The notes beneath the pieces were generated by a model. It did not search any database, was not told the DNA's origin, and saw only the letters and a list, made by a program, of their open reading frames with translations. Made by a program: the position numbers and the translations under genes. From Terrimicrobiaceae bacterium (lineage in GTDB: Bacteria; Verrucomicrobiota; Verrucomicrobiia; Chthoniobacterales; Terrimicrobiaceae), in NCBI GenBank assembly GCA_018402345.1, contig JAGYIV010000008.1, positions 248,001 through 312,000 of the forward strand: DNA of 64,000 nt, in the 5' to 3' direction. Below, one piece after another: positions 6,672 through 10,457 of the stretch (the stretch's first letter is position 1; every line of letters starts with the position of its first letter).

Positions 6672-7208
6672 TTACCAGGCGGAAGGCGCCTTGGGGAAGG
6701 CATCGTTCGAGATCACCGTGCCATCGGTCGCGAGAAGTTGCATCTCGCCGAAATAATTCTCCGAAGGCCCGTAGCACCAGACCGACCAGATCGGCACAGC
6801 GGAACTCCCCTTCTGATTCAACACGAAACTCACCGACGCGATCGTCTTGCCATTCGCGTTCGCATACCGCTGGGCAATGTCAAACGCGTCCCTCGAATCG
6901 ATCCCGACCTTGGAAAGATCGATCGGCTTGTCGGAGGAAAAAATCTGCCTCAATCCCAGCGCTGGCGCGTCGGATGTCACCTCGCCAGAGGCCGCCGTCA
7001 GATTCCGGATTCCAGCGTCTTTCCCCGCCCCCTGCGCGACCACATACCACGTCGCTGGATTCGGATTCGCGTTGTCCGCCGAAAGCTTCAACACTCCATT
7101 GCGGTATTTTTCAGGCAGCGCCTTCAAGCACGCGAGCGCCCCCTTGGAATCCCCAGCGTGCACTTGACAAGCGCTTAGTAAAAGAAGAACGGCAATCAGC
7201 GTTTTCAT
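6672..7208 (-). CDS. Predicted lipoprotein of unknown function
   Basis: The 178-residue product starts with MKTLIAVLLLLSAC, a signal sequence with an LSAC lipobox, so Cys 14 would be lipidated. The mature part has no domain I recognise; it is a small alpha/beta-looking protein with one further Cys pair and Trp-rich ends (WSVWCYG). Membrane anchoring is seen; any function would be guesswork. It sits directly upstream of tlyA on the same strand and is divergent from the riboswitch-controlled operon, whose leader begins about 100 bases away. Confidence 0.75.
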   Translation of the reverse strand: MKTLIAVLLLLSACQVHAGDSKGALACLKALPEKYRNGVLKLSADNANPNPATWYVVAQGAGKDAGIRNLTAASGEVTSDAPALGLRQIFSSDKPIDLSKVGIDSRDAFDIAQRYANANGKTIASVSFVLNQKGSSAVPIWSVWCYGPSENYFGEMQLLATDGTVISNDAFPKAPSAW

Positions 7209-7311
7209 CCCCGCGACGTTATTCAACACACCTCCCAGAATCCATGAAAAAGCCGCCCGGGATTGACACCCGCCAGCCACATCACCTATGGTTGCGGATC
7301 CAAAGGGCACC

Positions 7312-7496
7312 CGCCCGATCAGTTCTTTATCTCAGCAAAAAACCAATCCGTCGGCCTAGGAAAGCAAGGGTGGAAGTCCCTCACTGTCGCGCAAAGGTCA
7401 AAGTCCGGGTTCGAACCGGCGGAGAAAACCGCACAGCGCCTGCAATGGCGCAACGGCAGCGCACGACTGTCCGTGCCGGGGGTGGTCCTTTCGCAT
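7312..7496 (+). promoter_or_regulatory. Cobalamin-type riboswitch aptamer (putative)
   Basis: The leader of the PEP-CTERM gene contains the hallmark segments of the cobalamin aptamer in order: GGAAAG at about 7359, GGGTGGAAGTCCC (7368-7380), ACTGTCGCGCAA (7383-7394), then AAAGTCCGG (7400-7408) and ACCGGC (7415-7420). These match the usual GGGAA / GTG-GAA-TCC / CTGTCCCGCAA / AAGTC-GG-ACC order of RF00174. Two further hairpins follow (for example GCGCC with GGCGC, 7436-7451). The expression platform is the terminator at 7497-7535. Corrinoid binding is inferred from motif order, not shown; a covariance-model search would settle it. Confidence 0.75.
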
Positions 7497-7535
7497 ACGG
7501 GGGAAGGGATTGTCCTTTGACATCCCCGTGTTTTT
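7497..7535 (+). terminator. Riboswitch expression-platform terminator
   Basis: ACGGGG (7497-7502) pairs with CCCCGT (7524-7529), with an inner AAGG/CCTT stem, followed by GTTTTT. The AGGA ribosome site of the next gene (about 7540) follows at once. Transcription would stop here when the upstream aptamer is in the ligand-bound fold, which is the typical off-switch layout. Confidence 0.7.
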
Positions 7536-7549
7536 GAAAAAGGACACCT

Positions 7550-8302
7550 ATGAAAAAAATCATCCGATTGCTCACTGCAATCCTCCTCGCCTCGGGCATT
7601 CCCCATGCCGCCGCGGCAATCATCAATCCAGGCATCACCACATGGGTCGGAGCCGGTTCCAACGAGTCCATTCTCGCCATCCAATGGCGCGATGCAAAAT
7701 CCCCCTCGGCCATCGCCTTCGGCTATCGCTGGACCTCCGGAACCACCACGCTCAACGACATGATCACAGCTGTCCTCGCGGCAAATGTCGGTCTCTACGC
7801 CAGAGGTGATCTGATTTCCGGTGGGTTCGGAAATGCCTACTTCGGATTCGGCTACGATACCGGCCTGGACTCGAGCTTCAGCATCACCGGAGCCGAGGAC
7901 GATCTTGGCGACCCGGCCACCCCAAATTTTATCAACGGCTTTTGGGACATGGGCAGCGGATACGCAGGCCCATGGTCTTCATTAAACGCTGCCCCAGCAA
8001 ACTCCTCCGACCGCTACCAGGAGGGCTGGATGGACAACGGCTTCTGGGAACTCTTCACCGCCACCTCCACTTTCACACCCACCACTTGGACCGCCAGCAA
8101 CGACGGCGGCACCCAACTCCTCGGAAGCGACTCGTGGTATGCCTACAGCCTCACAAACGCCGACTACACTTCCGTTACTCCAAATCTGACCTCGCTAAGC
8201 GCCTCCGTGCCGGAACCCTCCCAAATCGCCTCCTCCCTCTTGTTGATGCTCGGTGCCGCCTTTTTCCTGTGGAAGCGGCAAAAAGCAAAGCACCAAGCGT
8301 GA
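7550..8302 (+). CDS. PEP-CTERM surface protein under riboswitch control
   Basis: The 250-residue product has a signal peptide (MKKIIRLLTAILLASG, cleaved near AAAA), a compact domain of about 190 residues, and the C-terminal PEP-CTERM tripartite tail: VPEPSQ, a hydrophobic helix and the basic KRQK. Such tails are cut and the protein handed to the cell surface or matrix by exosortase. The N-terminal half carries ILAIQWRDAK and AFGYRW blocks, then Trp- and Gly-rich repeats. I recall this type of domain near cobalamin loci in other phyla but cannot verify that here. The upstream B12-type riboswitch makes a corrinoid-linked role, such as binding or scavenging at the surface, a reasonable hypothesis. 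The stop overlaps a GTG start of the pseudopilin gene (GTGA). Confidence 0.85.
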   Translation: MKKIIRLLTAILLASGIPHAAAAIINPGITTWVGAGSNESILAIQWRDAKSPSAIAFGYRWTSGTTTLNDMITAVLAANVGLYARGDLISGGFGNAYFGFGYDTGLDSSFSITGAEDDLGDPATPNFINGFWDMGSGYAGPWSSLNAAPANSSDRYQEGWMDNGFWELFTATSTFTPTTWTASNDGGTQLLGSDSWYAYSLTNADYTSVTPNLTSLSASVPEPSQIASSLLLMLGAAFFLWKRQKAKHQA

Positions 8303-9174
8303 CACCAAAAACTGGTTCCTTTTGGATTTTAGCAGGGGGGCACAGGCGTCTCGCCTGTGAGAGTCGCTGCGTTCCTTGGTTCCAATCGGGGGGGGGCGAC
8401 TCGCTGGCCAAATTAAAGCTCAGCACTCATGCATTCACGCTGGTGGAACTCCTCGCCGTGCTGGCCATCCTGCTCATTCTTGGAACCATCTCCTACGGCA
8501 CCATCTCAACAATCAGGAAAAGCTCATCCCTGGCAGTCTCCGCAAACAACATTCGCCAACTGTCCGCTGGCGGCATCGCCTACCTGGCCGACAACAACAA
8601 TGTTTTCTGGAAATACTACGACAACAGGCACCCGACCAATGGACGCGGCATCACCTGGTGGTTCGGCTTCGAAGAAAATTCCAGCAGGAGCAGGCCGGAA
8701 GGAGAGCGGGAATTCGACGCCTCAAAGAGCCCCCTCGCCAACTATCTCCCAAAAAACATGGTGCCGGACCCCAGCCTCGCCATCGCCGGAAATGCCTTCA
8801 AACCCAAATACAAACGAGGCTACATCGGAGCGGGCTACAACACTCTTCTTGGAGGGGGTTGGGTCGGGCGGGACCCCTTGCGCAACCGCTTCCAACTCTC
8901 GGATCCATCCAAAGTCGTCGTCTTTTTCACTTCCGCCCAAGTGAATATCTTCCAACGCCCAGCCTCCCCCTCCAATCCCATGCTGGAGGAATTTTACGGC
9001 ATCGACGCTCGCGAGGTCACCGTCCACTTCCGACACGGCGGCAAAGCCATGGTCGCTTTCGCCACGGGAAATGTCGGGTTTCTCGAAATGGAAGAGTCCA
9101 CAAGGGATTCACGCTACCCGGACGCGAATGTCGGCCGCTTTGCTCCCGCAGGCAGCACCGCCTACCTCGAGTAG
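8299..9174 (+). CDS. Type II secretion/type IV pilus-like pseudopilin
   Basis: The product carries the prepilin N-terminal signature HAFTLVELLAVLAILLILG (with the Glu at position 5 after the cleavage site) followed by a globular part ending in a GGKAMVAFATGNVGFLE region, which is the H-X9-DG-like tail common to Verrucomicrobia/Planctomycete pseudopilins. No ATG lies near the signature. The best start is the GTG at 8299 that overlaps the stop of the PEP-CTERM gene, giving an unusually long leader of about 42 residues that includes a palindrome and a run of nine G. A CTG at 8404, or a frame change in the G run, are alternatives. It converges on gspF with a five-base gap, so peptidase-processed export is plausible. 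Confidence 0.75.
   Translation: MTPKTGSFWILAGGHRRLACESRCVPWFQSGGGDSLAKLKLSTHAFTLVELLAVLAILLILGTISYGTISTIRKSSSLAVSANNIRQLSAGGIAYLADNNNVFWKYYDNRHPTNGRGITWWFGFEENSSRSRPEGEREFDASKSPLANYLPKNMVPDPSLAIAGNAFKPKYKRGYIGAGYNTLLGGGWVGRDPLRNRFQLSDPSKVVVFFTSAQVNIFQRPASPSNPMLEEFYGIDAREVTVHFRHGGKAMVAFATGNVGFLEMEESTRDSRYPDANVGRFAPAGSTAYLE
8341..8359. repeat. Short perfect palindrome CACAGGCG-TCT-CGCCTGTG
   Basis: Eight-base arms surround a three-base spacer, inside the long pseudopilin leader. The shape (GGCG, spacer, CGCC) is like the GCGGGCG/CGCCCGC hairpin after gyrB at 19246-19262. Such palindromes are normally intergenic, which weakens the GTG 8299 start. Confidence 0.6.
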
Positions 9175-9179
9175 CAGCC

Positions 9180-10457
9180 CTACTGCTGCATCCCGGTGAT
9201 AATGCTGATCAACGGCAGGAACAACGCGATCACGATCGTTCCGACAATCACCGCGAGGAACACAATCATGATCGGCTCGAGCAGCGATGTCAGACCCGAC
9301 ACGGCATTGTCCACCTCATCGTCGTAGACCTCGGCGACCTTCAGCAACATGTCGGGCAACTGGCCGGTCTCCTCGCCGACATCGATCATGCTGATCACCA
9401 TCGGCGGGAACACACCGCTCGACTCGAGCGGCTGCACGATCGACTCGCCCTCGCGCACGGCATCGTGAACCTTCGAGATCGCATCCGCTACCATGGCATT
9501 CCCTGCCGTGTCACGCGTGATATTCAGCGCCTGCAAAATCGGCACACCACTCGTCACCAGCGTTCCCAGCGTTCGGGAAAACCGCGAAATCGCGCTTTTG
9601 CGGGTCAGGTCGCCGAACACCGGGGCCTTCAACAGAAAGTTGTCGATCAACACACCGCCCTTCGGCGTCTTGGCCAGAAACTTGAACCCGAACGCCAGCG
9701 CCACGATCCCGCCGATCAGCACAAGAAGGTTGTTCTTCACCAGGTTGCTCGTGCCGATCACAAACTGCGTCAACGCCGGCAGCGGCTTCCCGCCAAGCAT
9801 GTCCGCGAAGATCGCTTCGAACTTCGGCACGATAAACACCAGCAAAAACGCCATGATCACAATCGCGATCACCAGCACGATCACCGGATAGAACATCGCC
9901 GACACCACCTTGTTCTTGATCTTTTGCGCCTTCTCCTGGAACTCCGCCAACCGCAACAACACCGTCTCGAGCACGCCGCCCAACTCGCCGGCCTTCACCA
10001 TGTTCACATACAGCTTGTTGAAAATGCGCGGATGCGACGACAGGCTCTCAGAAAATGTCCCGCCGCTCTGCACCGACTCGGCGATGCTCGTGATCACCTT
10101 CTTCAACACCGGATCCGGCTCCTGCTTGGACAGCACCGTCAATCCCCTCAGCAACGGCAACCCCGCGTCAATCAATGTCGCAAGCTGACGCGTGAAGATC
10201 ATCAGCGTTTTCGGTTTGATCGTCTTCCGCTCCAAAAACGGAATATTGATGTTGATCTTGATATCCTTCTTCGCCAGCGAGGCCCCTCCGCCGCCGGCGG
10301 CTTTTTTCTTCGGCCCCTTCCCCTCCTCCGCGATCGTTTTGGGAAAATACCCGGCCTGCCTGAGTTGGGCCACGGCGTCGTTTTGGGATTCTGCCTCGAG
10401 GATACCGGAGGTTTCCTGACCGCGGGCGTCCAAGGCAATATAAGTGTATCGAGGCAT
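9180..10457 (-). CDS. gspF: Type II secretion system inner-membrane platform protein GspF/PilC
   Basis: This is the polytopic platform protein that couples the cytoplasmic ATPase to pilin or pseudopilin assembly. The 425-residue product starts MPRYTYIALDARGQETSG and has two T2SSF domains (about 85-205 and 290-410). Each holds a conserved block: TRQLATLIDAGLPLLRGL and GELGG in the first, SRTLGTLVTSGVPILQAL and GEETGQLP in the second. The hydrophobic helices are near 190-215, 245-265 and 385-415. A Gly/Lys-rich linker at 48-65 separates the N-terminal segment. No GspE, GspD or PilB gene is in the window; the facing pseudopilin gene suggests they work together. Confidence 0.93.
   Translation of the reverse strand: MPRYTYIALDARGQETSGILEAESQNDAVAQLRQAGYFPKTIAEEGKGPKKKAAGGGGASLAKKDIKININIPFLERKTIKPKTLMIFTRQLATLIDAGLPLLRGLTVLSKQEPDPVLKKVITSIAESVQSGGTFSESLSSHPRIFNKLYVNMVKAGELGGVLETVLLRLAEFQEKAQKIKNKVVSAMFYPVIVLVIAIVIMAFLLVFIVPKFEAIFADMLGGKPLPALTQFVIGTSNLVKNNLLVLIGGIVALAFGFKFLAKTPKGGVLIDNFLLKAPVFGDLTRKSAISRFSRTLGTLVTSGVPILQALNITRDTAGNAMVADAISKVHDAVREGESIVQPLESSGVFPPMVISMIDVGEETGQLPDMLLKVAEVYDDEVDNAVSGLTSLLEPIMIVFLAVIVGTIVIALFLPLISIITGMQQ

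Follow-up and report, generated by a model that had tools for sequence, protein, structure and literature searches.

Vitamin B12 is too large to pass through ordinary porins and, to our knowledge, its uptake by Gram-negative bacteria runs through the TonB-dependent receptor BtuB. In Bacteroides, B12 is captured by the surface proteins BtuG, BtuH and BtuJ/DUF4465 (PMC6143338, PMC8941943, PMC13398666), lipoproteins that work with BtuB and whose folds are a propeller, a novel domain and a jelly roll. A transcobalamin-like clade of the SLBB beta-grasp superfamily, which includes intrinsic factor, transcobalamin and haptocorrin, was defined by Burroughs et al. 2007 (PMC1796856), and its bacterial members were predicted to scavenge B12. 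Among exoproteins with a PEP-CTERM tail, one precedent for nutrient scavenging is ZepA, which serves zinc uptake (PMC10957091). A further paper mentions both a cobalamin riboswitch and PEP-CTERM proteins (PMC12530212); the riboswitches that precede its PEP-CTERM genes are of the c-di-GMP type. In the open-licence literature searched, no report was found of a riboswitch-controlled B12-capture cassette coupled to a pseudopilin.

The locus considered here lies in a stretch of 64,000 nucleotides from a Terrimicrobiaceae bacterium (contig JAGYIV010000008.1, positions 248,001 to 312,000), hereafter called the window; the genome (G000) measures 3.1 Mb. The features of the locus are collected in Table 1. 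We conclude that it is probably a cassette for scavenging B12, with an exported transcobalamin-like protein working alongside a dedicated pseudopilin instead of BtuB; no binding, expression or uptake data support this. What is established computationally is the RNA with its covariation, the conserved cassette, the fold match, the B12-related context, the replacements by BtuB and DUF4465 and the lack of CbiC. An earlier, sequence-only reading had noted aptamer-like segments, a hairpin with a T run, a ribosome site, a PEP-CTERM protein and a pseudopilin whose GTG overlaps the preceding stop codon. All of these were confirmed to be present, and the hairpin with its T run, which had been placed at 7497-7535, held within the limits given in Table 1.

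Table 1. Features of the cassette in the window and, in the last row, of a surface protein family found in related loci.
Feature	Position	Strand	Evidence or remark
Conserved cobalamin-riboswitch RNA, AdoCbl-II type, aptamer and expression platform	7340..7563	+	RF01689 E 0.0012, covariation, model R1 252 bits
Aptamer core: closing stem 7348-7354/7416-7422; hairpin 7367-7370/7378-7381 with loop L5 UGGAAGU 7371-7377	7348..7422	+	
Two more conserved hairpins 3' of the aptamer: 7436-7440/7447-7451 and 7453-7459/7467-7474	7436..7474	+	Compensatory changes, helices 3 and 4
Anti-SD strand GUCCUUUC	7485..7492	+	Complementary to SD 7539-7545; helix 5 in covariation analysis
Terminator-like hairpin (about 7496-7531), then T5 (7531-7535)	7496..7535	+	-15.9 kcal/mol
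Shine-Dalgarno (SD) AAAGGAC	7539..7545	+	Sequence; 4 nt upstream of ATG 7550
Exported PEP-CTERM protein, 250 aa	7550..8302	+	AF2 pLDDT 83.5; family alignment A1
Predicted transcobalamin-like beta-grasp domain, aa 33-204	about 7646-8161	+	VIA-align Z 10.9 to 2pmv
VPEP tail: VPEP, hydrophobic helix, basic residues, about aa 220-247	about 8207-8290	+	
Dedicated pseudopilin, ORF from GTG 8299	8299..9174	+	PF07963, TIGR02532; alignment A2; conservation begins at 8428 (HAFTLVELL)
Interspersed palindromic repeat GGCACAGGCGTCTCGCCTGTG (8339-8359) and G9 tract (8388-8396), between conserved coding regions	8339..8396	+	
FAVFENSF-type surface protein	L065:4358-5932, L072:4452-5468, L080:9451-11175, L087:7540-8874		

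When the window was scanned with Rfam at gathering thresholds, no riboswitch match was obtained. In E-value mode (4227 families), the best match in 7200-7600 was AdoCbl-II (RF01689), located at 7348-7422 on the + strand with 25.1 bits, below the gathering score of 36.5 bits of this family. The sequence-only reading had proposed a check with RF00174; no match to this family was found at the window RNA, where AdoCbl-II is the best Rfam match instead, and over the whole of G000 it gave only a 10-bit match elsewhere. The P3 stem of the aptamer is poorly formed by comparison with the Rfam model. Moreover, the minimum free energy of 7312-7560 was not below that of shuffled sequences (z -0.4), and folding energy alone is therefore no evidence for a riboswitch. 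Taken on its own, the window sequence makes the riboswitch identity no more than probable, and its acceptance rests on the relatives.

In order to place the RNA among its relatives, loci were collected solely by similarity to the PEP-CTERM protein, so that riboswitches found nearby constitute an independent test. A cobalamin-riboswitch match was present upstream in all 18 of the best loci: eight of these matches were to RF00174 and exceeded the gathering score (best 77.9 bits, E 1.6e-17), three were to AdoCbl-II and did so too, and seven, AdoCbl-II matches of the window type, stayed below it. Of 388 genomes covered by a phylum-wide profile search, 35 contained the protein domain, and from these 31 further loci (L059-L089) were fetched, giving 49 in total. 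Among these 31, 24 reached the gathering score and another two narrowly missed it (30.4 and 30.6 bits, E about 6e-4), while no riboswitch match was detected in L062, L080, L087, L084 and L086, the contig ending close upstream in the last two. Altogether, a cobalamin riboswitch was matched upstream in 44 of these 49 loci, which had been selected by the protein only, and likewise in 10 of 11 additional loci gathered by pseudopilin similarity. The earlier claim of a cobalamin-type switch is thus supported, ligand binding and the direction of control remaining inferred; among the 49 loci, homologues without a detected riboswitch, which would speak against it, are the five just listed.

Thirteen RNAs of the window type were then aligned. 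Five helices were recovered with 93% of the cells paired, and 12 pairs were changed on both sides; none of 500 shuffles came up to this result, and pairing dropped to 43-56% when the partner strand was slid by 1-3 columns. Several of the aligned RNAs themselves exceed the gathering score of AdoCbl-II (L007 40.6, L018 40.4, L005 38.8, L120 41.2 and L113 37.3 bits). Because of this covariation and of these members, the match of the window RNA is not attributed to chance. A covariance model of the window-type RNA, which is conserved over about 223 nt, found exactly one copy in each of 14 of the 26 family genomes, the window RNA being the single copy in its own genome. By comparison with AdoCbl-II and Cobalamin (RF00174), both of clan CL00101, the order of segments and the core sequence are alike and close copies pass the cut-off, whereas the window copy remains below the gathering score and is extended by about 140 nt of further conserved RNA carrying the anti-SD strand.

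In all 13 RNAs, the anti-SD strand is complementary (5-9 nt) to the region directly upstream of the start codon. Both partners have changed together in two of them, L113 (TCCTTTTT/AAAAAGGA) and L120 (CTTTTCAA/TTGAAAAG). In the window, alternative partners of GUCCUUUC are GAAGGGA at 7503-7509 (helix 5) and, partly, loop L5. An L5-L13 kissing interaction is only partially supported: UGNAA of L5 is able to pair with CUUUC at 7488-7492, clear covariation being absent. The T run after the hairpin is kept in only 6 of the 13 RNAs, which makes control of translation the more conserved feature. Judged by sequence alone, the RNA resembles a two-state switch in which the ribosome site would be hidden or freed. 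That the OFF state corresponds to the presence of B12 is an assumption made by analogy with other B12-uptake genes, in the absence of expression data.

The protein encoded downstream of the RNA defines a Verrucomicrobiota family, in which the window protein is 26-46% identical to those of the other loci. It does not itself reach the curated PEP-CTERM cut-offs (TIGR02595, 13.9 bits against 16; PF07589, 11.2 bits against 20.7), and its PEP-CTERM tail is therefore accepted, as likely, through its relatives. PF07589 was matched at E<=0.1 by 12 of 19 family members (best 7e-6), P221 and P223 are invariant in the alignment of these 19 sequences, and VPEP, a transmembrane helix and a basic end are common to the homologues. 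Apart from the PEP-CTERM tail, no Pfam family covers the window family at E<=0.1, DUF4430 included, and a search of the PDB by sequence gave nothing real for it. In distant members, the domain is found within proteins of 600-850 aa, sometimes twice, usually with a pseudopilin coming after it here too.

An AlphaFold2 (AF2) model was built from the 19-sequence alignment. Foldseek alone returned no significant match for this model; the fold match reported here was obtained by running VIA-align on the Foldseek candidates. The top hit was intrinsic factor (2pmv, Z 10.9, 108 residues, 2.6 A), followed by transcobalamin (2bb6, 10.6) and haptocorrin (4kki, 10.5). The best 13 rows were all cobalamin carriers (Z 9.8-10.9); next came RUMGNA_00854 (3u7z, 9.3), and unrelated beta-grasp proteins did not exceed 6.1. 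In the model, strands 82-87 and 96-102 follow helix 68-78, to be compared with the beta-hairpin insert of the clade; the pairing of these strands was not checked. Thus, the fold is predicted by the model to be of the type of the cobalamin-binding beta-domain of intrinsic factor, transcobalamin and haptocorrin, and cobalamin binding is inferred.

The window family and the transcobalamin-like SLBB clade are therefore alike in predicted fold (about 100 residues), in export and in B12 context. The likeness is by fold only, without a sequence-level match, and the window family lacks the alpha-toroid domain, whereas it adds a PEP-CTERM tail, the coupling to a pseudopilin and a cobalamin riboswitch, in Verrucomicrobiota. 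With BtuG, BtuH and BtuJ it shares the character of an exported B12-binding accessory protein, as inferred here, of a riboswitch-controlled uptake locus and, in one genome (G018), a slot occupied by DUF4465; the cassette differs in consisting of a predicted beta-grasp PEP-CTERM protein and a pseudopilin, without BtuB. The likeness to ZepA is that of an exported PEP-CTERM scavenger of a nutrient in short supply, with TonB receptors and a Fur-family gene nearby in certain genomes, but ZepA handles zinc under Zur control and neither riboswitch nor pseudopilin has been reported for it.

The second gene of the cassette carries the prepilin cleavage/methylation motif above cut-off (PF07963, 22.8 bits against 21.2; TIGR02532, 23.4 bits against 16.3), and its product is 49-65% identical to those of the other loci. 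Its GTG (8299-8301) does overlap the stop codon of the PEP-CTERM gene (8300-8302), which implies a leader of about 43 aa. This leader crosses the interspersed repeat and the G9 tract, most leaders in relatives being short, so that the true start is uncertain. Past GTG 8299, the frame contains no ATG, GTG or TTG before the pilin motif is reached; CTG 8404 could serve as start instead. Five partial copies of the repeat GGCACAGGCGTCTCGCCTGTG occur elsewhere in the genome, and a change in length of the G9 tract would shift the reading frame from GTG 8299.

A same-strand pseudopilin was identified in the cassette by profile in 42 of the 49 loci, and clustering added L067, bringing the count to 43. 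Chance adjacency of the two genes was rejected on this ground, and the earlier proposal that the pseudopilin works with the PEP-CTERM protein is supported by it. In L065, L072 and L080, a TonB receptor and another surface protein take the place of the pseudopilin. When the search was started from the pseudopilin, 27 of the 28 loci in Verrucomicrobiota had the PEP-CTERM domain directly upstream, in a few cases as a weak match; for the exception, L132, only 373 bases were available upstream of the pseudopilin match. According to the contig titles, these loci span Spartobacteria, Chthoniobacterales, Terrimicrobiaceae, Kiritimatiellae and others. The model of the pseudopilin is only pilin-like (Z 4.9) and does not indicate a function. 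The pseudopilin resembles the Verru_Chthon cassette pseudopilins in its prepilin N-terminus; assignment to cassette protein D (TIGR02596) was rejected, the score being 21.6 bits against a cut-off of 70 and confined to the N-terminus. A type II secretion gene, GspF/PilC-like, lies at 9180-10457 on the - strand, convergent to the pseudopilin gene. It was rejected as a member of the cassette, the relatives having different neighbours there.

Two natural REPLACEMENTS are observed, namely a DUF4465 protein in G018 and a BtuB-like receptor in G003, G009 and G015. G018 belongs to a neighbouring genus; there, the gene after the same RNA encodes a PEP-CTERM protein carrying a DUF4465 domain (3.7e-50), and the pseudopilin comes next. 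DUF4465 proteins bind B12 (PMC13398666), and several of their structures have been solved; a published B12-binding family therefore fills the slot of the window protein. Together with the fold match, this supports the earlier proposal of a surface corrinoid-binding or scavenging protein, although binding is still an inference. In G003, G009 and G015, from the genus of the window, the gene behind the same RNA encodes a TonB receptor, for which the B12 receptor TIGR01779 is the closest model (6e-43 for G003, below the cut-off of the model). In G005, only the first 30 residues of the receptor are available before the contig end. Over the 26 family genomes, the pseudopilin was found in 14, the BtuB-like receptor in 4, both in none and neither in 8 (Fisher p 0.03, uncorrected for kinship). 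The RNAs of three of the four receptor genomes are 96-99% alike, and the receptor swap may therefore represent one or two events.

The genomes are mostly draft assemblies, so that absences, both those above and those which follow, are soft. CbiC, a marker of B12 synthesis, was absent from all 26 family genomes and present in 7 of 14 control genomes; on the basis of this absence, the window bacterium is probably unable to make B12. In some relatives, the neighbours of the cassette include a BtuCD-like fusion (FecCD 1.4e-73 with an ABC ATPase), a BtuF-like protein, DUF6580, MetH and a BtuB-like receptor. No convincing BtuC was found in the window genome, which gave a single weak FecCD match (1.4e-6). 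DUF6580, a membrane protein, is present in the window genome (G000:C4:209363-209890) and in 20 of the 26 family genomes, and lies directly 3' of the pseudopilin in G019 and G022 (e.g. L106:4428-5030); by inference, it may be the inner-membrane importer of B12. A TonB plug domain was undetected in 8 of the 14 family genomes with the pseudopilin, and the window genome shows two plug matches elsewhere.

In the mechanism that we propose, a cobalamin riboswitch of AdoCbl-II type would control a two-gene corrinoid-scavenging cassette in a probable B12 auxotroph. When cellular cobalamin is scarce, the RNA would permit expression of both genes. The first product, exported, PEP-CTERM-tailed and with a predicted beta-grasp fold, would capture corrinoid on the cell surface or beyond it. 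The second product, the dedicated pseudopilin, would become part of a pilus-like machine of the type II/type IV kind; it may either carry the capture protein across the outer membrane or assist the inward passage of the loaded protein or of its ligand. The cassette would occupy the place of the BtuB-like receptor found in close relatives. Corrinoid binding, the OFF direction, surface location, the action of the pseudopilin and passage through the outer membrane are all inferred. The inward-transport role merits attention because BtuB is replaced and TonB receptors are missing in some carriers; pseudopilus-driven DNA uptake in competence is an analogue. A bolder reading, advanced here only as a possibility, is that of a TonB-independent B12 route over the outer membrane, replacing BtuB in auxotrophic Verrucomicrobiota. 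A pseudopilus with a B12-regulated pseudopilin might then retrieve or expose the transcobalamin-like capture protein, and the reading extends to carriers that show no TonB-dependent receptor at all.

Other explanations can be opposed to the scavenging cassette. The strongest is export only, in which a type II secretion pseudopilus carries the PEP-CTERM B12-binder out and B12 enters via an unlinked receptor or channel. Pseudopilins are parts of type II secretion systems, gspF adjoins the cassette, and the two plug matches in the window genome could correspond to such a receptor. However, no plug domain was detected in 8 of the 14 pseudopilin genomes, where the ordinary receptor would be missing, and the cassettes of relatives adjoin genes other than gspF; in balance, we lean slightly against this explanation. 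It is less credible that the domain binds another ligand, such as a B12 precursor, cobalt or another cofactor, the riboswitch merely reporting B12 status. Several ligands have indeed been proposed for the transcobalamin-like beta-grasp clade (PMC1796856), L080 and L087 lie beside a Fur-family gene without a detected riboswitch, and ZepA shows that a PEP-CTERM exoprotein can handle zinc (PMC10957091). Against this stand the B12-uptake and B12-use genes in the loci, DUF4465 in the same slot and the BtuB-like receptor behind the same RNA.

Finally, the RNA could be some other conserved leader that resembles a cobalamin switch. The score of the window copy below cut-off, the poorly formed P3 and the partly supported L5-L13 kissing speak in favour of this view, which we nevertheless consider most improbable, since some of the aligned RNAs score above the AdoCbl-II gathering threshold and the same RNA precedes the BtuB-like receptor in G003, G009 and G015. 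The B12-scavenging cassette thus remains the preferred reading. On this reading, a phylum-wide, B12-controlled cassette would take the place of BtuB behind the same riboswitch, including in genomes without a detected TonB receptor, and the presence of the same RNA before a BtuB-like receptor in close relatives hints at a different B12 entry route in the carriers of the cassette. It would offer a testable candidate for B12 acquisition by these freshwater and soil auxotrophs. Verrucomicrobiota have numerous PEP-CTERM proteins and pseudopilins that are uncharacterised, and one family of them would gain a likely function; a pilus-like machine would also be linked to a nutrient.

Some minor observations concern the borders of the family. 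L177 (MT835658.1), deposited as an unverified phage from human faeces, encodes a fragment similar to the PEP-CTERM domain (48% over 56 aa); this phage-collection record is an unannotated faecal scaffold in which a riboswitch match is absent, and it may be bacterial DNA. In L080:6695-11538 and L087:6360-9717, family members stand beside a gene for a Fur-family regulator, with a TonB receptor or a pseudopilin; these loci, in which no riboswitch was detected, could belong to a branch serving another nutrient, e.g. zinc. In addition, an uncharacterised surface protein family (FAVFENSF...AYVEVSSDG..FVRFP) accompanies the domain, mostly together with a TonB receptor, its only match being a weak one to LIC_13355 family lipoproteins.
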